64,000 nucleotides of DNA from Paenibacillus durus ATCC 35681 (GTDB lineage Bacteria > Bacillota > Bacilli > Paenibacillales > Paenibacillaceae): positions 2,294,001 through 2,358,000 of the forward strand of contig NZ_CP011114.1 of the NCBI RefSeq assembly GCF_000993825.1, read 5' to 3'. Shown piece after piece: positions 14,301 through 23,910 of the stretch. The position numbers and the translations under genes were made by a program. Each line of letters opens with the position of its first letter. Within the stretch, counting starts at the first letter, position 1. The notes below the pieces were generated by a model. It had not been told where the DNA came from. It made no database searches and saw nothing but the letters and a program-made list of their open reading frames with translations.

Positions 14301-14513
14301 ATGGAAAGCATGTGTATGGAAATGATGATGACGATGTGTATGGAAGACATGATGGCCAAGATGAACAGCATGAAAATGTGCATGGAAAAAATGTCTGGTA
14401 TGGATATGGAGTCCATGGACATGGAAATGATGATGAAGAAAATGCAAGACTGTGATGAAATGATGACAATGTGCATGACGATGATGCGTGAATGCATGCC
14501 AATGTCCAAGTAA
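14301..14513 (+). CDS. Methionine- and cysteine-rich small protein
   Basis: 70 residues, of which 31 are Met and 6 Cys (positions 5, 13, 27, 51, 58, 65); most others are Glu, Asp, Lys, Ser or Thr. Recurrent units are MCME and MMTMC. C51, C58 and C65 are exactly seven apart, so they would line one face of a helix. There is no signal peptide, so it is cytosolic. GAGAGGCGG precedes the ATG by seven bases. I know no named family. Soft-metal (Cu+/Ag+) binding or an oxidant sink are the two functions the composition suggests; both are inference. Confidence 0.75.
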   Translation: MESMCMEMMMTMCMEDMMAKMNSMKMCMEKMSGMDMESMDMEMMMKKMQDCDEMMTMCMTMMRECMPMSK

Positions 14514-15055: not shown

Positions 15056-17500
15056 CTAATCAATTGCCCTCAAGTTATCTATACTCGACATTCGATTTAC
15101 TTTTCTTAAAGGCAACGAGGTAGAGACTAAGCAGATGGCAATAGCACCAATAAAGGACCAAACGATTTCAACCAACGGCAACCGCCAAGAAGCCAAATCG
15201 CCATTTATTGAGTGTAAGAAGTATGAGATTCCACTGCCGGCGACTACTCCGATTAGTGCCGCCACCAATCCATATAGCAATCCTTCCCATATAATCATAC
15301 TGAACAATTGCCTTTTCTCCATTCCAATCGCCTGCATGGTTCCAAATTCCACGGTACGGGTATGAATATTGGTGTAATTTGTATTAAAAATATTCAATGC
15401 TCCGATGAGTCCGACAAAACCGATAAATTCCCAGGCAAGGATATTCATTTGACGTTTGGTATTTGCAACCTGAACCTGAGCCTCTTCATGGGAAACCAAT
15501 GTAGAGGATGGGACTTTATCTTTGATCGTACCTAGTACGGTCTCAATCGAATGACGATCTGCTTGAGGATCGACAAAAAGTTGAACCGCTTGAACATCGG
15601 ATCGGCCGTAAAGCTCCCGGTAAACAGCCGAAGGCATGATAACATCATATCCTAACAAATCATAAGTTCTCTGATAAGCATGCTGTGCTGCCACTCCAAC
15701 TACCGTCACTTCTTTTCCATGTACGGATATTTTATCACCCACTTTAAGTGATGGTAGTTGCATTTCTTCGATACTACTAATAGGATTAATCGCAATAACC
15801 CCTGTTCCCTGTTTTAATGCTGCTTCATCAAATGGACCTTGCAACGTGAATTCCTTTAATTTACTCAGCATTGACAGATTGTAACCAAATACTTCATTCG
15901 TCGATAATACCGGTGCCCCTTTTATCTGCACATCGCCTTTTTCGGCTCTCTGGTACTGCGCTGTTCGCACCTCCTTGATCCCAGAAAGATCCTCAATAGA
16001 CGTGATATCTTGTTCAGAGAATCCTGCTTGTTTATTATCCTGATTAACAAACAGGTCGTAATCTCCCTCAAGCAGCTGATCGGCCTTAGCAGTGCCGCTT
16101 AGCGACATGGAAAAAGAATGGATGGATACAAAAACGACAATACCCATAAATAAAGACAGCATGGTTGTAAAGGTCCGGCCCGGATTTCGCTTAAGATTCA
16201 GCCGTGCCATATAGCTGACGAAATGGCGAATTCGTGCAACATTATGGGCAGTTCTCTTGCGGCGAACAGGAATTGAAACGGCGGCACGACCGGTTATGGC
16301 TACCGTAGGCGACACACGGGAAGCCCTGCGTGACGGAACGAGTACGGAGAGCAATGTGGCTGTCAGACTGATACAGCCAGCTAGTACAAACGGCCAATAG
16401 GAAAGGGAATGATAATTTCTTATCACCTCTTGGGCTTCTTTGGCGGAGGAAACCCCCAGCATATCCGGATTAAACAAACCGGCAATCATTTGCGATAGCC
16501 ACTCGGCAAACCCGGCGCCTGCAAGCATTCCGAGCGGAATAGCAATGATACACAGAAGAAACGCTTCTCCTAGTACAAGGGAACGTATTTGCCTCGGTTC
16601 GGCTCCAATCGCCCGCAGCATGCCAAACTGGGGAATTCGGCGTAACATGGAAATGTGAAATACATTATAGATGACCAGACATGCGGCCAGCAGCACTAAT
16701 CCGCCGGTCAATATCCAGCCAAGGCTGGAATCGCGGATCGAACCACCATTATAGCCTTGCGCAGCCATCAACATGTCATTGTAAAGAATTTGGTTCTTAC
16801 TAATTTCATACTTTCGGGCAATGTCCGAAATGACTTGTTCGGGATTATGGCCATCGGCAACTCTGATAAATATGGAATATTTTTGATAGTCTGCCGGCAA
16901 CAATTTCACTGCCGCATCCGGACTAGCGAGTCCTAAACCAATATTACTTGCATTTGTACCTATAGAATTCTTCAAAATTCCCGAGAGCGTAAACGTAATT
17001 GTCTGTCTCAACTCCGGGCCAGGGGTACCTTTGATGGAGCTGATATCTAGCGTTATCTTCTGCCCAATCTCTCCGGTAATTCCCATCTGCTTAAGAACGG
17101 CCTGCTCAAGCGCAATTTCATTCTCTTTTGTCGGGAACCTCCCTTCTAGCAGCTGCACATTTTGCATACTACGAACTTCGGAATCAAAACCTTCAATGGT
17201 TACATTTATTCCCCCGCCAGGAAGCTTGAACGCTCCTAAAGTAAGACTTAAACCAGCATTGTTGACTAGTGGCTCATGCCGTATTTGTTCGGCGGTCGAA
17301 CGACCCAGATTAGTAATCACTGCATGATCGTGTCCTCCTACTTCTTGAGCTTGCTGAATCATAGCGTCCTTCATAAGGGAGTAAGACAAACCCAACGCCG
17401 TAAGAAGTGTAGTTGCCAGAATTATACTTACACCCGCCAGAATAGCCATCATCTTTTGCCGGGACAAGCTTTTCGTAACAAATTGCAGGTAAGAGTTCAT
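15056..17500 (-). CDS. FtsX-like ABC transporter permease (putative self-immunity)
   Basis: 814 residues with the duplicated FtsX/MacB design: TM near residue 20, a large extracytoplasmic domain, three TM around 265-390, another TM near 440, a second extracellular domain and three C-terminal TM. Such permeases with a LolD-like ATPase extract or expel hydrophobic peptides, often protecting against antimicrobial peptides. It overlaps the ATPase gene by 4 bases. Its place at the end of a peptide-modifying cluster suggests immunity, but it could be an independent transporter. Codon use is less AT-rich than the core genes upstream. Confidence 0.85.
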   Translation of the reverse strand: MNSYLQFVTKSLSRQKMMAILAGVSIILATTLLTALGLSYSLMKDAMIQQAQEVGGHDHAVITNLGRSTAEQIRHEPLVNNAGLSLTLGAFKLPGGGINVTIEGFDSEVRSMQNVQLLEGRFPTKENEIALEQAVLKQMGITGEIGQKITLDISSIKGTPGPELRQTITFTLSGILKNSIGTNASNIGLGLASPDAAVKLLPADYQKYSIFIRVADGHNPEQVISDIARKYEISKNQILYNDMLMAAQGYNGGSIRDSSLGWILTGGLVLLAACLVIYNVFHISMLRRIPQFGMLRAIGAEPRQIRSLVLGEAFLLCIIAIPLGMLAGAGFAEWLSQMIAGLFNPDMLGVSSAKEAQEVIRNYHSLSYWPFVLAGCISLTATLLSVLVPSRRASRVSPTVAITGRAAVSIPVRRKRTAHNVARIRHFVSYMARLNLKRNPGRTFTTMLSLFMGIVVFVSIHSFSMSLSGTAKADQLLEGDYDLFVNQDNKQAGFSEQDITSIEDLSGIKEVRTAQYQRAEKGDVQIKGAPVLSTNEVFGYNLSMLSKLKEFTLQGPFDEAALKQGTGVIAINPISSIEEMQLPSLKVGDKISVHGKEVTVVGVAAQHAYQRTYDLLGYDVIMPSAVYRELYGRSDVQAVQLFVDPQADRHSIETVLGTIKDKVPSSTLVSHEEAQVQVANTKRQMNILAWEFIGFVGLIGALNIFNTNYTNIHTRTVEFGTMQAIGMEKRQLFSMIIWEGLLYGLVAALIGVVAGSGISYFLHSINGDLASWRLPLVEIVWSFIGAIAICLVSTSLPLRKVNRMSSIDNLRAID

Positions 17501-18174
17501 TGTCTTGCCCCTTCCATAATGCGGCCGTCCACTATATTTAATACAGATGAAGCGCGCTCAGCTACCTTGGGGTCATGTGTGATTACGATTAGCGTCTTGC
17601 CGAATTCCCGCACCGATTCAATCAGCAGATCAAGTACTTCTTCTCCGGTACGGGTATCCAGATTACCTGTGGGCTCATCCGCAAAGACAATCTTCGGTTT
17701 CCCGGAAAGTGCACGGGCAATTGCAACCCGCTGCTGCTGCCCCCCTGATAACTGCCCCGGCAGATGGTGCAATCGTTCTTCAATGCCCAGTTTACGTGAA
17801 AGGTCGCGCAGGTATGACATATCCGGCTTTTTCCCATCCAGCAACAAGGGCATAGTAATATTCTCTTCGGCTGTTAAGATCGGAATCAAATTAAACGACT
17901 GAAAGATAAATCCAAAGTTTCTTCTGCGAAAAATCGACCGTTCCCTCTCATTCATTGCATATAAATCTTGTCCCTCAATAGTTACCTTGCCGGAACTAGG
18001 AGTGTCCAAGCCCCCAAGCAACTGTAAAAGAGTGCTTTTCCCGCTCCCGCTCGGTCCCACAATAGCTAAAAATTCATTCTCGTTAATCGTAAGATCAAGC
18101 GGATATAGAGCCTGCACCGTCGTTTCATCCTGACCATATTTCTTGGCCAATTGCTTCGTTTCGATTAATGGCAT
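17497..18174 (-). CDS. ABC transporter ATPase, LolD/MacB type
   Basis: 225 residues from ATG 18174, with an AAGGAG site upstream. Walker A GPSGSGKST, Q-loop FQSFNLIP, signature LSGGQQQRVA, Walker B VFADEPTGNLD and switch ITHD are intact. It is the partner of the FtsX-like permease (ATGA overlap). About 60 bases separate it from the upstream exporter gene, so it may be read from the same transcript. Confidence 0.9.
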   Translation of the reverse strand: MPLIETKQLAKKYGQDETTVQALYPLDLTINENEFLAIVGPSGSGKSTLLQLLGGLDTPSSGKVTIEGQDLYAMNERERSIFRRRNFGFIFQSFNLIPILTAEENITMPLLLDGKKPDMSYLRDLSRKLGIEERLHHLPGQLSGGQQQRVAIARALSGKPKIVFADEPTGNLDTRTGEEVLDLLIESVREFGKTLIVITHDPKVAERASSVLNIVDGRIMEGARQ

Positions 18175-18233
18175 CTCAATAGCACTCCTTTTTACTTTAT
18201 AGGGAAAATTATACACTTAAACATCAAAGAAGT

Positions 18234-20012
18234 TCAACTTTCACTCAAGCTCAGGGTTTGATGAATTTGCTTCATCTCAACATTTGTACTGTATAAGTTA
18301 TAATAATATTCTCCTGAATGCAGTAATTCGGCATGTGTACCACACTCTATTACCCGGCCTTCTCTCATAACAAAAATCTGATCCGCATTCTCCACGGTGG
18401 ATAGACGGTGAGCGATGATAATTACGGTTTTATTCGAAAGAAATAATCTTAAATTCTCATTGATTAAGGATTCTGTGATGTTATCCAAAGCAGAAGTGGC
18501 TTCATCTAAAATAAGGATAGGTGAATCTTGAAGAATAGCCCGGGCAAGCGCGATCCTTTGTTTCTGTCCCCCTGATAGTTTTACTCCGCGATCACCTATT
18601 ACCGTATGAAAACCGTCGGGTAAGAGATTAATATAATCATATATATCAGCAGCCTTCGCAGCCTGTATTAACTGTTGTTCCGTAACCCCAGTCTTATCCA
18701 GGAGAATATTGTTATAGATTGTATCATTAAATAGAAACACATCTTGCGAAACTACCGTTATTGATTTTCTTAGATAAGCTAAATTGAATTCTTTAATGTT
18801 GACACCATCCAACAATATTTCTCCTTCATCTGTTTCCCAGAACCTCATTAACAAATTAATCAGGGTGCTTTTTCCTGAACCGCTTTCTCCGACAAGCGCA
18901 TTTATACTGCCTTTGCCGCATACTAAATTTAACCCGTTAAGTACGGACTTATTTCCATCATAGGAGAAGCTGACATCTCTAAATTCAATATCACCCTTGA
19001 TATCGGCGCTATAGCCTCTATTATCTTGAGAAATATCAATCGGTTCATCCAATAAATTAAATATCCGGTCAACTGAAACTACCGATTGTTGATATTTCAT
19101 ATTGATTTGCACCATTTGTATAATAGGACCTAATAATTTTTGGGAATACTGTAGAAAAGCAATTAGCCCACCGATTGTAAGTGCTCCATCAATAACTTTA
19201 AATCCTCCATAACCCAAAATAAGGACAGTAGTAAGAGAACTGATAAGACTTGTTACGACCATATTCGCAGAAAATAAAACCTCAAGTTTAGTGCCCTTTC
19301 TAAGTATATTTTTTCCGGTTTGGATAAAACGAGTTAAAAAGTATTTACGCCCTTTTAGAATTGCAATGGGGATTATGGAAGGAATTAATTCCTGAATATG
19401 AACAATAAACTGCCCAAAGAGATCACGGTATTCATTGTTCATGCTCACGATCTTCTTGTTAAACCAGTGCTGTGAAACAAACAGAATGGGTTGAAGTAAG
19501 ATTGTAAACAGCAAGAGATCCGGTTGCATATATAATAAATAGATAAAAACTCCGATAGCCGTACAAATTTCAGAAACTGTCGAAAAAATCATGGAGGTAG
19601 ATAAATTTTCAACCATCGAAGTATCGTTGTTAATAACAGCAATGATCTCACCGGCTTTAGCGTTCGCATGAAATTTCCCAGTGAGCTTTTGTAAATGTTT
19701 CACAATCTTCAACCGTAAATCGAAGACAATCTTCTTGCCAATAATCGAATAGGTATAATCAGACATTAGCTTGCATCCGCCTTGCACAATACTGATTGAT
19801 AAATATAGGATAATATATTGAACCAATTGATCCACATTGTGTTCTTGAATAGCTGAATCTATAATTCTCATTGTTAAAAAGGGCAAAACAAGCAAAGAAA
19901 CTGAATTCCCAATCATAAACAAAGAGGCAATAAAATGAAGTCTTTTATAACTGAAAATAACTTTAAGCAGTCTCAACATGTTAGTTCTGCTGGAATTTCT
20001 ATTCATTTTCAT
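18234..20012 (-). CDS. ABC exporter (fused permease-ATPase) of the RiPP cluster
   Basis: 592 residues: six-TM type-I exporter domain (about 20-310) followed by an ATPase with Walker A GESGSGKST, signature LSGGQKQRIA, Walker B LILDEATSALD and switch AHRLST. There is no N-terminal C39 peptidase, so leader removal must come from another protein, probably the protease encoded upstream. Its ATG directly follows that protease's TGA, giving translational coupling. Likely exports the modified peptides. Strongly AT-rich compared with the window average. Confidence 0.9.
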   Translation of the reverse strand: MKMNRNSSRTNMLRLLKVIFSYKRLHFIASLFMIGNSVSLLVLPFLTMRIIDSAIQEHNVDQLVQYIILYLSISIVQGGCKLMSDYTYSIIGKKIVFDLRLKIVKHLQKLTGKFHANAKAGEIIAVINNDTSMVENLSTSMIFSTVSEICTAIGVFIYLLYMQPDLLLFTILLQPILFVSQHWFNKKIVSMNNEYRDLFGQFIVHIQELIPSIIPIAILKGRKYFLTRFIQTGKNILRKGTKLEVLFSANMVVTSLISSLTTVLILGYGGFKVIDGALTIGGLIAFLQYSQKLLGPIIQMVQINMKYQQSVVSVDRIFNLLDEPIDISQDNRGYSADIKGDIEFRDVSFSYDGNKSVLNGLNLVCGKGSINALVGESGSGKSTLINLLMRFWETDEGEILLDGVNIKEFNLAYLRKSITVVSQDVFLFNDTIYNNILLDKTGVTEQQLIQAAKAADIYDYINLLPDGFHTVIGDRGVKLSGGQKQRIALARAILQDSPILILDEATSALDNITESLINENLRLFLSNKTVIIIAHRLSTVENADQIFVMREGRVIECGTHAELLHSGEYYYNLYSTNVEMKQIHQTLSLSES

Positions 20013-21035
20013 TCAACTCCCATAAACAAAGTCTAGTAGAGAGTAAATGGATTGAAAATTGTAATAGGTCATTTCTTCATAACAAAGATGAACACCAAAT
20101 TGTGCTTCAATTTCTTTTAAAATCAATAGACATTTCTGCGGTGTTAATTCAAAGTCAGGATGAAACAATTTATATTGATACAAAAGTGGCTTTAACTCTT
20201 CGCTTAACTCCAACGTCTCTGCTAAAATGTTTTTCATTCTTTCGGTTACATTATCTGGATATGTAAAATGAGGCGAGATTAGATCTCTTTCTTTAAAGTC
20301 CATGAGATTCTTGTCACTCTCTTCTTCCCAAGCTGATCTCATAGCCGATCCTTCAAGCCGATTAAACAATTGATCATTCTGGAGATATGGTTCGAGAGCA
20401 AGCTTCTTTAGTACTACTCCGCTAAATACTGCAGTAGCTTTACTATTCCCGCCAAACATCTCCCACTTTCCATTTAACCCTTGTACAAGAATGGGGGTTG
20501 CGTTAGCAATACAGTTAATCCTATATTTGAAATTCAACCAATAATCATCAGGAGCTTCAAAGGCTGCGCCTCTTACACCGATTACCGTATCGAAATCGGC
20601 AGGAAAGCTGGACATTCTCCTATTCTGCAAAGAACAAATCAATATTTTCCCCTGATCCTGGAGTAGTTTACATATTTCGCGGAGTTCATCCACATATTTT
20701 ATATTTGTGGTTGCGATACTCAAATTAATCACTCGCACATTTTGAGTTAACAAGTGCCGTAATGCTTTGATCAATATTTTTGAATGGGTCGCTGCATTCT
20801 CATTTAAAATCTTCACAACATAGATCTTAGCATCAGGCACTATGCGTTTAATTACAGATGCACATAAAGTGCCATGTCCGTTCCTATCCGTATAACATTC
20901 ATCCGACTCACTATCGGTGTTAAAGTTTATTCCCCCAATAATATTAGAAGCAAAAGCTTCATTAGACGTGCAAATTCCGCTATCTACTATAGCTACAACT
21001 GAATTGGTTTTATTACTAAATTTACTATTATTCAT
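20013..21035 (-). CDS. Subtilisin-like (S8) protease, putative leader peptidase
   Basis: 340 residues without signal peptide or propeptide, so cytoplasmic. Triad candidates are D18 (AIVDSG), H54 (RNGHGT) and S198 (FGGNSKATAVFSG), with N138 as oxyanion residue. The Ser region departs from the usual GTSMAxP and lacks the Pro. Residues 225-340 are an extra helical domain of unknown role whose last 40 residues look vaguely carrier-protein-like but lack a DSL serine. Position between the precursors and exporter suggests it cuts the leader peptide. Alternatives: product degradation or immunity. Confidence 0.8.
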   Translation of the reverse strand: MNNSKFSNKTNSVVAIVDSGICTSNEAFASNIIGGINFNTDSESDECYTDRNGHGTLCASVIKRIVPDAKIYVVKILNENAATHSKILIKALRHLLTQNVRVINLSIATTNIKYVDELREICKLLQDQGKILICSLQNRRMSSFPADFDTVIGVRGAAFEAPDDYWLNFKYRINCIANATPILVQGLNGKWEMFGGNSKATAVFSGVVLKKLALEPYLQNDQLFNRLEGSAMRSAWEEESDKNLMDFKERDLISPHFTYPDNVTERMKNILAETLELSEELKPLLYQYKLFHPDFELTPQKCLLILKEIEAQFGVHLCYEEMTYYNFQSIYSLLDFVYGS

Positions 21036-21061
21036 ATCTACACCTGATTTTTAAATTTTTA

Positions 21062-21093
21062 GAAAAATACCGGCTTTCGCAAGCCGGTATTTT
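21062..21093 (-). terminator. Terminator between the precursor genes and the protease gene
   Basis: AATACCGGCTT pairs with AAGCCGGTATT; on the minus strand it runs into TTTTTC. It would let the precursors be made in excess, with partial read-through to protease and exporter. Confidence 0.75.
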
Positions 21094-21153
21094 GAATATA
21101 TATGGAGAGTTAAAGACCAAATATTTTATAAACTTATAAATTTAAATAATTTT

Positions 21154-21306
21154 TTACCAAGCAGGTGTGAGATAAGCATCAATTACAGCAGTACAACCGG
21201 CGGTAAGACTGCCATATCCATAATATCTTACACAATCATTACCGCAACCTTGTCCATTTACGTCCAATTCTTCCGTCTTATCCGTGATTTTTTCGATTTT
21301 CAACAT
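21154..21306 (-). CDS. Putative RiPP precursor peptide 1
   Basis: 50 residues, found by direct translation. Residues 1-20 form a charged leader (starts MLKIEKITDK, ends DVNGQG). The core from C21 holds three Cys (21, 25, 38) and ends in DAYLTPAW. GAGGAG lies eight bases before the ATG. The first 21 residues are identical to precursor 2, with only three silent base changes, while the cores differ. C25-x2-Y28, G30-Y31, G37-C38, D43-A-Y45, T47 and W50 are shared. Just downstream of two radical SAM genes, it is probably their substrate, with Cys-derived (thioether-type) links possible. Confidence 0.85.
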   Translation of the reverse strand: MLKIEKITDKTEELDVNGQGCGNDCVRYYGYGSLTAGCTAVIDAYLTPAW

Positions 21307-21360
21307 TCATACCACTCCTCAATTTTAGATTTACTTTCCTTTAATAAATTCAATAAATTT

Positions 21361-21513
21361 TTACCAAAAATTTGTCACATAAGCATCGTAATAAGCTTGA
21401 CAACCTCCGGATGAACTGCTATAACCGGAATAATGTAAACAATCGTCAAGGCAACCTTGTCCATTTACATCCAATTCTTCCGTCTTATCTGTGATTTTTT
21501 CGATCTTCAACAT
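21361..21513 (-). CDS. Putative RiPP precursor peptide 2
   Basis: 50 residues, parallel to precursor 1. Leader 1-20 is identical; the core starts CLDDC, has the same C21/C25/C38 spacing, a Ser-rich stretch at 32-35 and ends DAYVTNFW. It has an almost ideal AAAGGAGGTGAT ribosome site, the strongest in the cluster, so high expression is expected. It lies 64 bases after the SPASM radical SAM gene. No second start or stop-codon readthrough is needed. Product class (sactipeptide, ranthipeptide or other) cannot be fixed from sequence. Confidence 0.85.
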   Translation of the reverse strand: MLKIEKITDKTEELDVNGQGCLDDCLHYSGYSSSSGGCQAYYDAYVTNFW

Positions 21514-21576
21514 TGTTATCACCTCCTTTTTTTGATTTAGTTTTGGTCTTCAATATTTGGTCTTCACTCTAACCAC

Positions 21577-22623
21577 CTAATTTACAGTTGAATAGTAGCA
21601 GCGATTAATTTTATGCTGTACATTTTCTATCACACATAGTACAGCAGAAGGTACGAAGTAATCTCCAGTCAGCTGCTTATTAATAGCTTTACATCGTCCT
21701 CCCATACACCCTTTATAGTGAGTACAACCAGAGCAAACTTCATTGTCTATGCTGGAAGGAACATGAAATTCTCTTAGCTTTCCATCATCTATGCCCAATC
21801 TCACATCGCCGATTATATAATCTGGCTGTCCTACGAGATAAGTACAGGGAAACAAGTTCCCGGAAGGATCAATGTTGATAGTCGTTTTTCCTCCATCGCA
21901 CTCGCCCATTTCTTTACGCTGATATCCATCCACCATTCCAATAAGCACACTTTCATTTTTTTGTTTGGCTTTCCTATACAGCGCTGCTGTAAGATCTAAC
22001 TGTTCATATAGGACCTGCATATGCTCCTTGTCCCAGTTTGAATCAAAATAGTCCGGAATAGGAACAATTGTGTTGAAACCCAATTCCATAACATGTTTTA
22101 TATTCTCATACAATTTATTAACGGATTTAGAATTAAACGTCATCCTTGCTCGAAGATCGGGTCTTTTTTTAATAAATATTGGAATTACATCTATTATTTC
22201 ACTGTAAGTTCCACGGCCACCTAACATCTTTCGATTTTCATCATGTGTTTCAGGAGTACCATCAATACTTACCGAAATTGAATAGTTGAAGTGTTCGCTT
22301 AGATAATCCATTTTTTCCTCATCCAGCAAAGTCGCGTTCGTAGTGGTGCCAAAACTAACTTTGCAATTGCTGTTCCTAAAATGATTCTTGAATTCCTCTG
22401 TAAACCAGCGAATGGTTTCAAATTCTAACAGCGGTTCTCCTCCATGATAATTAATTACTAAGTTGTTATCCGCATCCTGCAACCCAGAAAAATGATGGAT
22501 TACATATTGAATCGTTTCTTCTGCAATTTGTTTATTCATCCGATGGTTAGCCTTATTATTACCTTCATAACAATAAGTACAAGCAAGATTACAACTGCTG
22601 GTAACCCAAATATTTGCAAGCAA
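21577..22623 (-). CDS. Radical SAM/SPASM peptide-modifying enzyme
   Basis: 348 residues. C11, C15 and C18 (CNLACTYC) bind the SAM-cleaving [4Fe-4S] cluster; YHGGEPLL is the GGE SAM contact. The C-terminal SPASM region carries further Cys (ECDGG, FPC, CSGCTHYKGC, GGRC and a late C) for auxiliary clusters. It has no N-terminal RRE, so it probably relies on its partner to bind the leader. The start is TTG immediately after the partner's TAA, with GAGGTG nine bases upstream: clear translational coupling. Likely forms crosslinks from Cys of the precursors. Confidence 0.85.
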   Translation of the reverse strand: MLANIWVTSSCNLACTYCYEGNNKANHRMNKQIAEETIQYVIHHFSGLQDADNNLVINYHGGEPLLEFETIRWFTEEFKNHFRNSNCKVSFGTTTNATLLDEEKMDYLSEHFNYSISVSIDGTPETHDENRKMLGGRGTYSEIIDVIPIFIKKRPDLRARMTFNSKSVNKLYENIKHVMELGFNTIVPIPDYFDSNWDKEHMQVLYEQLDLTAALYRKAKQKNESVLIGMVDGYQRKEMGECDGGKTTINIDPSGNLFPCTYLVGQPDYIIGDVRLGIDDGKLREFHVPSSIDNEVCSGCTHYKGCMGGRCKAINKQLTGDYFVPSAVLCVIENVQHKINRCYYSTVN

Positions 22624-23910
22624 TTATACATTCACCTCTTCTATGTCCCAGATGATTCGATTAAGAAATTTCTTCTGAACCACACACCGCTCTTCGAACA
22701 ACTCATCATTTGCTGCATACATTTCAGTCTCTTGAAGACAATGCCAGCAAAAAAGATTAACCGAACAGTCCTTGCACTTATGATAATAATCAGGCTGAAG
22801 ATTGATTAATGACTGAAATCCTGTGTTTGTTTCTCTTGTTGCATCCTCATGCAAACGATTCAAATGATCTAATTCCTTAATTTGCGCAAGTTTATGTTCA
22901 CTTGATATTAGAAGTCCACAAGGATAAATAGAACCGTCATAATCTACTAGCAATGTTTTTCCTCCAGCGCCACAGGTACACATTTTCAGTTGGTCAGCAA
23001 TTTGTTTTACCTTTTCGTTGGAAAGTTGCCTTTCAATGGTTTTTTCTTTATGTACTGAGTTCTTAATGAGATTCTTCCCTCTTCCAATTGGATTAAATTG
23101 TCTAACTACCACTCGTGTACCCAGCTTTTTATTTAAATCCCTGAATTCTCCTTCTAAGTGCTTATTTTTATCTGTAATAACCATAGACAGTGATATCTTT
23201 TCTATACCTTGCTCTTGTAAAAGTGCAATGCTGTTCAATACTTTTCCATAAACACCACGTCCACGAAGCTGGGAGCATGACTCTTCATCTACTCCATCAA
23301 GACTTATATCAAAACTGCCCACGTATTTAACTAGATCCTCAACATTGTTCTGGTTTATGAAAGTAGCATTCGTAGCAAGATTGATTTTCCCTTTAAAGTT
23401 TTGTGATGTATATTTTAAAATTTCAAAAAAATCATCTCTTAACATTGGTTCGCCGCCAGAAAAAGTTATTACTTCCGGTTTTGAAGCAAGGATTTTATCT
23501 ATGATCTGAATAACTTCTATTGTAGTGAGGGTTTCTTTAGGCGAAAGTGTAGAGGTGAATTCCGCATTGTAACAACAGTGGGCACAATGTAAGTTGCACT
23601 TATTTGTAAGGGCAAAATAAATATGACTAAACGATTGGTCTGCATTAGAAGATTCGTTATTTTCTTTAATAAGATCTATAGAATGTAGCTTTTCAAATAG
23701 CTCTCCAAAATATAGCTTATCTTCCTCATCCTCTAAACAATCTATAAGTTGAGCTGGACTTAAGGAATTCTCAATTCCCAGATTTAAGATGTTGAAACAC
23801 TGTTCCGATATTTTTATCCATTCTCCGGTTTTGTTATTACCAAGTACTGTTCGATTTTCATTATGCATTACTTTACAGTGACGAGGCAAAGTATAGGGTT
23901 CAGTTAGCAT
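22624..23910 (-). CDS. Radical SAM/SPASM enzyme with PqqD/RRE-like N-terminus
   Basis: 428 residues, first gene of the cluster. Residues 1-80 look like a PqqD-type RiPP recognition element (TGEWIKISEQCFNIL, then SPAQLIDCLEDEED). C105, C109 and C112 (CNLHCAHC) form the radical SAM site, followed by FSGGEP. The SPASM part has CTC, YPCG, CKDC, FCWHC and a final C. It should bind the precursor leader and alter the core, for example through a thioether or C-C bond. GGAG precedes the ATG by eight bases. AT-rich like its neighbours. Confidence 0.85.
   Translation of the reverse strand: MLTEPYTLPRHCKVMHNENRTVLGNNKTGEWIKISEQCFNILNLGIENSLSPAQLIDCLEDEEDKLYFGELFEKLHSIDLIKENNESSNADQSFSHIYFALTNKCNLHCAHCCYNAEFTSTLSPKETLTTIEVIQIIDKILASKPEVITFSGGEPMLRDDFFEILKYTSQNFKGKINLATNATFINQNNVEDLVKYVGSFDISLDGVDEESCSQLRGRGVYGKVLNSIALLQEQGIEKISLSMVITDKNKHLEGEFRDLNKKLGTRVVVRQFNPIGRGKNLIKNSVHKEKTIERQLSNEKVKQIADQLKMCTCGAGGKTLLVDYDGSIYPCGLLISSEHKLAQIKELDHLNRLHEDATRETNTGFQSLINLQPDYYHKCKDCSVNLFCWHCLQETEMYAANDELFEERCVVQKKFLNRIIWDIEEVNV

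Follow-up and report, generated by a model that had tools for sequence, protein, structure and literature searches.

A conserved gene cluster of Paenibacillus durus predicted to make two thioether-bridged peptides with two unlike radical SAM enzymes

Based on the analysis of 64,000 nucleotides of Paenibacillus durus ATCC 35681 (contig NZ_CP011114.1, positions 2,294,001 to 2,358,000; this whole stretch is referred to as the window), we propose that a cluster of ~9 kb on its minus strand makes two related thioether-bridged ribosomally synthesised and post-translationally modified peptides (RiPPs), which are most likely narrow-spectrum bacteriocins that act against Gram-positive relatives. We put the probability of this reading at about 0.7. 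Judging by its genes, the cluster is a real, conserved and unmodelled variant of the thioether RiPP systems, the chemistry of which is predicted. The genome that carries the window is 5.58 Mb long and consists of one contig. In the order of transcription, the cluster encodes two radical S-adenosylmethionine (SAM) enzymes, E1 and E2, two precursors, an S8 protease, an exporter, an ATPase and an FtsX-type permease; short precursors with a conserved leader and a variable core lie beside modifying enzymes, which is the arrangement by which a RiPP locus is recognised. The gene positions given in an earlier note on this DNA were all borne out by the list of open reading frames (ORFs) and by direct reading, as were its abutting and overlapping starts: E1 abuts E2, the S8 protease abuts the exporter and the ATPase and FtsX genes overlap by 4 bases. 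Matches to Pfam and NCBIfam together with reading also confirmed the S8 protease (cytoplasmic by its lack of a visible signal peptide), the ATPase/FtsX pair and an exporter without a C39 peptidase, which was absent from its 19 Pfam matches. The features, in window positions, are as follows.

22624..23910, minus strand: E1, radical SAM/SPASM maturase with an N-terminal domain (residues ~12-77) that resembles a RiPP recognition element (RRE); motif CNLHCAHC, NCBIfam, AlphaFold2 model, Foldseek
21577..22623, minus strand: E2, radical SAM/SPASM maturase, PapB/QhpD-like, no RRE, TTG start; motif CNLACTYC, NCBIfam, alignment, tree
21361..21513, minus strand: precursor 1, 50 amino acids (aa), with C21, D24, C25 and C38; ORF, profile search, alignment
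21154..21306, minus strand: precursor 2, 50 aa, leader as in precursor 1, core different; ORF, profile search, alignment, substitution rates
21066..21092, minus strand: hairpin and U-run separating precursor 2 from the protease; found by eye, missing from the sites listed by the terminator scan
20013..21035, minus strand: S8 protease, cytoplasmic, QhpE-like, with a C-terminal acyl-carrier-protein-like domain (residues ~257-340) and Pro299 at the position of the phosphopantetheine Ser
18234..20012, minus strand: ATP-binding cassette (ABC) exporter, membrane and ATPase domains (PF00664, ABC_membrane; PF00005, ABC_tran), no C39 peptidase
17497..18216, minus strand: ABC ATPase of an FtsX/MacB-type pair, predicted immunity; NCBIfam; found without the core in the related genome G107
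15056..17500, minus strand: FtsX/MacB-type permease, predicted immunity; PF02687 and PF12704, two stretches each; found without the core in G107

Both precursors are, as had been claimed, 50 aa long with C21, C25 and C38, and their residues 1-21 are identical. Precursor 1 starts with the ATG at 21513, for which direct reading of the sequence revealed a strong ribosome site, AAAGGAGGTGATAACAATG; the mechanical ORF opens three codons earlier, at the GTG at 21522. A search with a single sequence found only the two peptides of the window. A profile, first built from 15 precursors, reached further: of 5.8 billion proteins, it matched 46 at E <= 0.1. These include the two of the window, and all of them were unnamed or annotated as 'hypothetical'. 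In an alignment of 50 rows (the 46 proteins and four locus copies, with some near-copies and no row dropped), V16, C21, D24 and C25 were invariant, G20, G37 and C38 reached 90% and the leader had the consensus LKIxKITDKxxxLDVxGQG; the C-terminus of one row, P0166, was divergent. The core that had been described earlier thus stands in the form C-x-x-D-C...C, whereas the DAY(L/V)T..W tail is confined to the closest rows, i.e., those of the window, L135, L136 and P0123. The synonymous rate per site exceeded the replacement rate in all 36 pairs of nine precursors, many of these pairs being near saturation; between precursor 2 (21154-21306) and that of L136, for example, 21.5 of 30.8 synonymous and 20.5 of 116.2 replacement sites differed. 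These rates indicate that the precursors are under purifying selection.

The view that the precursors fit no nameable class was upheld, as profile searches against Pfam, NCBIfam and PHROGs gave no model for them. Pfam and NCBIfam scans of the 50 rows returned only stray matches at E >= 0.025 and no covering model, and the CLI_3235 precursor model was matched by none of the rows, the window's two included. PHROGs gave nothing for the precursor, and the matches that it did give were only of the radical SAM type or of unknown function. No precursor match was found in the phage records, and the plasmid records, searched with one precursor sequence, gave a single weak match (E 0.09), namely the precursor of the plasmid p_TW11. 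In the titles, beginnings of abstracts and passages of open-access papers (the scope excluded subscription papers and bioRxiv), the precursor family was not named among the matches listed; it is apparently unnamed. Because the signature of this unmodelled family, V-x-G-x-G-C-x-x-D-C, is simple, further hidden loci should be findable.

The cluster is a conserved system, found again in soil bacteria that are related and on plasmids of gut bacteria. Using an E1 profile, with a threshold of E <= 1e-50 in the genus and 1e-60 in the order and phylum samples, E1 was detected in nine of 100 genomes of the genus (the window's own included), in 12 of 296 of the order and in two of 398 of the phylum sample, one of the latter being a broken fragment in the genome G403, interrupted by a stop. 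The same search was empty in ten genomes of the class of G403. Among 72,556 plasmid records, three matched the profile. We read 18 loci (L031-L036 and L134-L145), of which L031 and L032 are near copies and L138-L140 close relatives. E1, E2, the S8 protease and the exporter occurred together in all of them, the exporter being split into two ORFs in L035 and L138-L140, and a small ORF with C-x-x-D-C lay inside the cluster in 17, the exception being L139, whose stretch begins at a contig end. The earlier note had allowed for precursors that are not conserved beside the enzymes; in this neighbourhood survey they recur with them. The distances of E1, E2 and the S8 protease correlate across the 18 rows (r 0.93-0.94, 0 of 2000 permutations), which common descent alone could explain. 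Moreover, the precursor profile matched 15 of the 2,826 small ORFs in the 18 family loci compared to none of 11,865 in 86 control loci. Thirteen of the 15 were already in the model and the one in L032 copies one of these; that in L143 is independent (E 5e-14). A search of genome contigs for related loci returned only remote radical SAM genes, which served as control loci, and one candidate, L037 (in G082), was dropped from the family with an E1 match of 73.5 bits and no match for E2, the S8 protease or the precursor.

Across the loci the precursors form three groups: the window type, a GCWxDC type and one with at least four Cys. The profile reaches only the first two, in 12 of the 18 loci; there was no match in L035, L138-L140, L144 and L145. 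The window type also occurs on the mobilizable Clostridioides difficile plasmid p_TW11 (L143), where it is annotated as 'hypothetical protein'. To the GCWxDC type belongs, among others, a second, paralogous cluster of the genome that carries the window (L036, 7769-18262; ~238.8-249.3 kb of contig C1); its precursors contain GCWDDC and, as judged by eye, it also has a response regulator paired with a kinase. The type with four or more Cys was found in L035, L138, L140 and on one Paraclostridium sordellii plasmid (L145), with a related three-Cys peptide in L144. On the two P. sordellii plasmids (L144, 2634-10242; L145, 5263-10219) we also observed agrB/agrD genes, two E1-type enzymes for one E2 and more diverged Cys precursors. 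On p_TW11, E1 is adjoined by a divergent gene annotated as murJ (L143, 7173-8696), which could be a spare cell-wall lipid flippase and a hint at the target or at immunity. A further tandem radical SAM pair is present in the window's own genome (G000:C1:2251644-2253306), ~41 kb ahead of the window start. The cluster described in a survey of C. difficile extrachromosomal elements was considered and set aside; in the excerpts of that paper (PMC6807378), as with all papers cited here by such numbers, which were used in part, it is a different one of the C39/TonB type.

Both enzymes carry the radical SAM motifs and SPASM cysteines that had been read before, CNLHCAHC in E1 and CNLACTYC in E2, and in each of them the SPASM region contributes another seven Cys. 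C105, C109, C112 and the seven later Cys of E1 were invariant in 25 aligned rows, and its SPASM domain, defined by those seven, matched PF13186 with E 0.0008 and 20.1 bits, slightly under the cut-off of 21.5; the seven SPASM-region Cys of E2 were invariant in 16 rows (two rows are shortened at the N-terminus). The best NCBIfam match of E1 was NF045574, StsB-type (E 1.9e-36, 125.9 bits, cut-off 625), and that of E2 was NF047865, PapB (E 2.1e-63, 214.6 bits, cut-off 340). E2 also matched the model of the QHNDH maturase, which we take to be QhpD, at 2.8e-38, and TIGR04068 scored 128.3 bits with E2 and 72.5 bits with E1 against a cut-off of 500. Because both enzymes score below the curated cut-offs, their chemistry may differ from that of StsB and PapB. 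This kinship, StsB-like for E1 and PapB-like for E2, agrees with the sacti- or ranthipeptide-like product that had been suggested for the locus.

The AlphaFold2 model of E1 (predicted local distance difference test score 86.6) begins with three strands that are followed by three helices, similarly to the N-terminus of TrnC with its three strands and winged helix (PMC12093266). Its best Foldseek match was CteB (5wgg), and the structural matches also included SkfB, SuiB, YydG/EpeE and TigE. The 18 E2 rows align from the radical SAM domain onwards; in five of them the mechanical ORF has an extension that stays unaligned. PapB homologues above the cut-off were found in four of the 100 genus genomes and have open frames of 472-488 aa compared to 348 for E2; because E2 begins at the radical SAM motif and its frame is shorter, it lacks the presumed RRE part of these homologues. 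In a tree of 18 E2 rows, nine of 20 PapB and neighbour rows (four PapB, five neighbours) and six of 20 E1 rows, rooted only at the midpoint, the E2 rows formed one group (97/93) beside PapB and its neighbours (98/91). By sequence, then, E2 represents a separate group next to PapB, and neither enzyme is a member of a curated family.

Gene content, conservation, domain make-up, co-occurrence and the ATPase/FtsX pair without the core in a sibling were computed, and from these we infer every bond, complex, cut site and activity of the following pathway. The shared leader would dock on the single RRE of E1, and this RRE would serve E2 as well, the two enzymes probably forming a complex; in thuricin CD, both precursors are acted on by a complex of TrnC and TrnD (PMC12093266). 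E2, by its kinship with PapB and QhpD, would join C21 to the invariant D24 (C-x-x-D) in a non-alpha thioether, and E1, by its kinship with StsB, would form a further thioether or two of the alpha type, starting from C25, C38 or both. Cleavage by the S8 protease would fall near V16-G20, the exporter would secrete products of ~3.2-3.6 kDa and the ATPase/FtsX pair would protect the producer. The calculated monoisotopic mass of the unmodified core, counted from C21, is 3374.327 for precursor 1 and 3202.420 for precursor 2, from which every link would subtract 2.016. The assignment of the bonds to E1 or E2 is a guess from kinship. The C21-D24 link is probable by analogy: it is pointed to because PapB joins Cys-Xn-Asp with n of 0-6 and the Cys N-terminal (PMC9413430), and streptosactin has a Cys31-Gly34 link, i.e., i/i+3 (PMC8172795). 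Cys-Asp bonds have also been described for QhpD and freyrasin (PMC8326336).

The nearest known systems each share only a part of this design. As in the freyrasin/PapB ranthipeptides, a Cys stands N-terminal to an Asp in a conserved motif and E2 is closest to PapB; however, the cluster's precursors have one invariant C-x-x-D instead of the six C-x3-D of freyrasin, and E2 forms its own group and is without the N-terminal extension that the four genus homologues above the cut-off have. E1 is closest to StsB of the streptosactin system (StsB and GggB being presumably one enzyme), and the i/i+3 spacing of one streptosactin link would fit C21-D24, but E1 lies under the cut-off and the cluster adds a second radical SAM enzyme and an S8 protease with an ACP-like (acyl-carrier-protein-like) domain.

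It is somewhat unlikely that the cluster works purely as a sactipeptide system in the manner of thuricin CD, with E1 and E2 forming one complex that makes S-C-alpha links only and D24 being a recognition residue. Two radical SAM/SPASM enzymes and two precursors are common to both, the thuricin enzymes are effective only together (PMC12093266) and the nearest named family of E1 is a sactipeptide maturase, StsB. An RRE is present in both thuricin enzymes, TrnC having a canonical and TrnD a non-canonical one (PMC12093266), whereas the RRE-like part is found on one enzyme here and E2 starts at the radical SAM domain; E2 has PapB as its best family and groups with PapB and its neighbours, not with E1. 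The precursors also look unrelated to those of thuricin CD, and the S8 protease with its ACP-like domain is a further difference. That one enzyme performs another chemistry, such as epimerisation or C-C or C-O linking with the aromatic residues of the core or tail as the target, we regard as unlikely: SuiB, YydG/EpeE and TigE are among the structural matches of E1 and many precursor cores bear Tyr and Trp, but none of the aromatic positions is invariant in the 50 rows, compared to two Cys and one Asp that are. Within the preferred thioether reading we tentatively put forward, as a possibility of limited likelihood, a RiPP class whose precursors would each be given two kinds of thioether, an alpha link and a non-alpha Cys-Asp link, by a pair of unlike radical SAM enzymes with one RRE shared in trans. 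The result would be a fused C-x-x-D-C bicycle, and the removal of the leader would rely on a serine-less carrier-protein domain that has become a peptide-docking module. The cluster is a test case for the division of work by two radical SAM enzymes on one peptide and for whether one RRE can serve both; it could possibly be used as a source of bacteriocins and of a compact enzyme for Cys-Asp stapling that has no RRE of its own.

The S8 protease has the triad D18/H54/S198, of which D is present in 17 of 18 rows (L034 starts later) and H and S in all 18, and inspection by eye shows no signal peptide. The QhpE model was matched by all 17 family members scanned, the window's protease scoring 108 bits against a cut-off of 165. 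Its substrates here would be short peptides rather than the enzyme subunit of QHNDH maturation, with which the cluster shares the matches of the S8 protease and E2 to the QhpE and maturase models. In the structure model, residues 257-340 form a helical domain. When a profile built from the C-termini of 11 of the 18 family members was run against the PDB, most of the 60 matches listed were named carrier proteins (best E 1.7e-5); Pfam PP-binding was matched by two of these 11 (best E 0.0042), and the model TIGR04069 of the ACP-related protein reached 25.8 bits against a cut-off of 70, as a fused domain, with E <= 0.1 in five of 17 members. At the start of helix II, the phosphopantetheine Ser is replaced by Pro in the window's protease and in the profile consensus. 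By these comparisons, the C-terminal part is carrier-protein-like without the phosphopantetheine Ser (in the window and the consensus), and it would act as a docking module, not as an acyl carrier.

A related gene make-up is known from the SacP23 cluster of Paenibacillus polymyxa, in which the radical SAM enzyme CcpM and a subtilase-family protease are accompanied by a separate TIGR04069 ACP-related protein, and which conferred activity against Gram-positives when expressed in Bacillus subtilis (PMC10731318). The SacP23/CLI_3235 systems and our cluster share a precursor, a radical SAM enzyme, such a protease, an ACP-related protein and an ABC transporter; they differ in that two shorter radical SAM enzymes replace the one CcpM and the ACP-like domain is fused to the protease. 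Because this fusion joins what SacP23 encodes separately, it suggests that the ACP-related protein of the CLI_3235/SacP23 clusters is a partner of the protease. Among the NCBIfam matches listed for the eight window proteins, there was none to the CLI_3235 precursor or TIGR04066. The terms 'sactipeptide' and 'ranthipeptide' are absent from the excerpts of a paper on S8 proteases for lanthipeptides and cyanobactins (PMC10885120). In the proteases of L036, L141 and L142, one aligned position reads E or K. We take it to be the position of the oxyanion-hole Asn of subtilisins, and with this change the three may be altered enzymes.

Of the relatives found at the site, G107 is the closest; it is 93% identical to the window up to 18209 and matches it again from 24245. 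The 5.2 kb between these matches encode, as judged by eye, a different FtsX/ATPase pair together with a kinase and a regulator; G119, G033, G130 and G013 have only this other cassette at the site. Because the matches of G107 flank it, the exchanged piece can be placed at ~18.2-24.2 kb, in the AT-rich part: G+C is 0.34-0.39 at 18-24 kb compared to 0.42-0.55 in most of the window, with further dips at 14-15 and 50-51 kb. The earlier note had taken the AT-rich core as a sign of horizontal gain; the exchanged piece is narrower than the cluster, as the ATPase/FtsX genes lie outside it in the 93% identical stretch. G107 keeps this pair with no precursor, E1 or E2 at the site; it has no E1-family match at 1e-50, and other PapB-like radical SAM genes lie elsewhere in its genome. 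The pair is predicted to confer immunity because this sibling retains it without the core, as expected of retained immunity genes; other roles are possible. The alternative cassette (L158, 4713-9840, and the same site in L159-L162) makes the site a possible hot spot for peptide-resistance cassettes.

These observations also bear on the proposal that the peptides are signals rather than bacteriocins and that the ATPase/FtsX pair serves for sensing or export. Of the three clostridial plasmid relatives, two adjoin agrB/agrD and LytTR regulators, and a regulator and a kinase, by eye, lie beside the paralogue in the window's own genome; the retention of the pair in G107 without precursor, E1 and E2 and the inhibition of Gram-positives by SacP23 (PMC10731318) argue against it, and we consider this improbable. 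A decaying or silent locus without a product would suit the AT-richness and the patchy occurrence in nine of 100 genus genomes, but is very improbable given the intact frames, the catalytic residues present and the purifying selection on the precursors.

Several points weigh against the bacteriocin reading and the bonds proposed with it. Product, bonds and activity are all predictions from the genes, and both E1 and E2 fall under the nearest curated cut-offs. The Foldseek template modelling scores of E1 are all just ~0.5, and a second structural comparison barely covers the RRE-like part, a candidate PqqD-like RRE, its rows mostly spanning residues 85-415. According to previous results that PMC8172795 cites, PapB is strict in its need for Cys-X3-Asp and rejects Cys-X2-Asp in most cases. 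The conservation of the precursor motif is partly circular because the search profile contained the motif and the 50 precursors include near-copies; chance C-x-x-D-C small ORFs also occur, four of them away from the enzymes in 16 loci. The stretches retrieved for L034, L137 and L143 contain no ATPase/FtsX match.

The respective scans gave no more promoters (25 compared to 26.5) or terminators (6 compared to 4.8, standard deviation 2.5) than are to be expected from shuffled sequences. The hairpin at 21066..21092 is a candidate for a partial terminator that possibly favours the precursor mRNA. Outside the cluster, an ORF of 70 aa at 14301-14513 on the plus strand, for which the Pfam scan gave nothing above the cut-off, is rich in Met and Cys (MESMCMEMMM...). 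It is nearly alike in all five relatives fetched at the site (L158-L162) and possibly encodes a metal-binding peptide.

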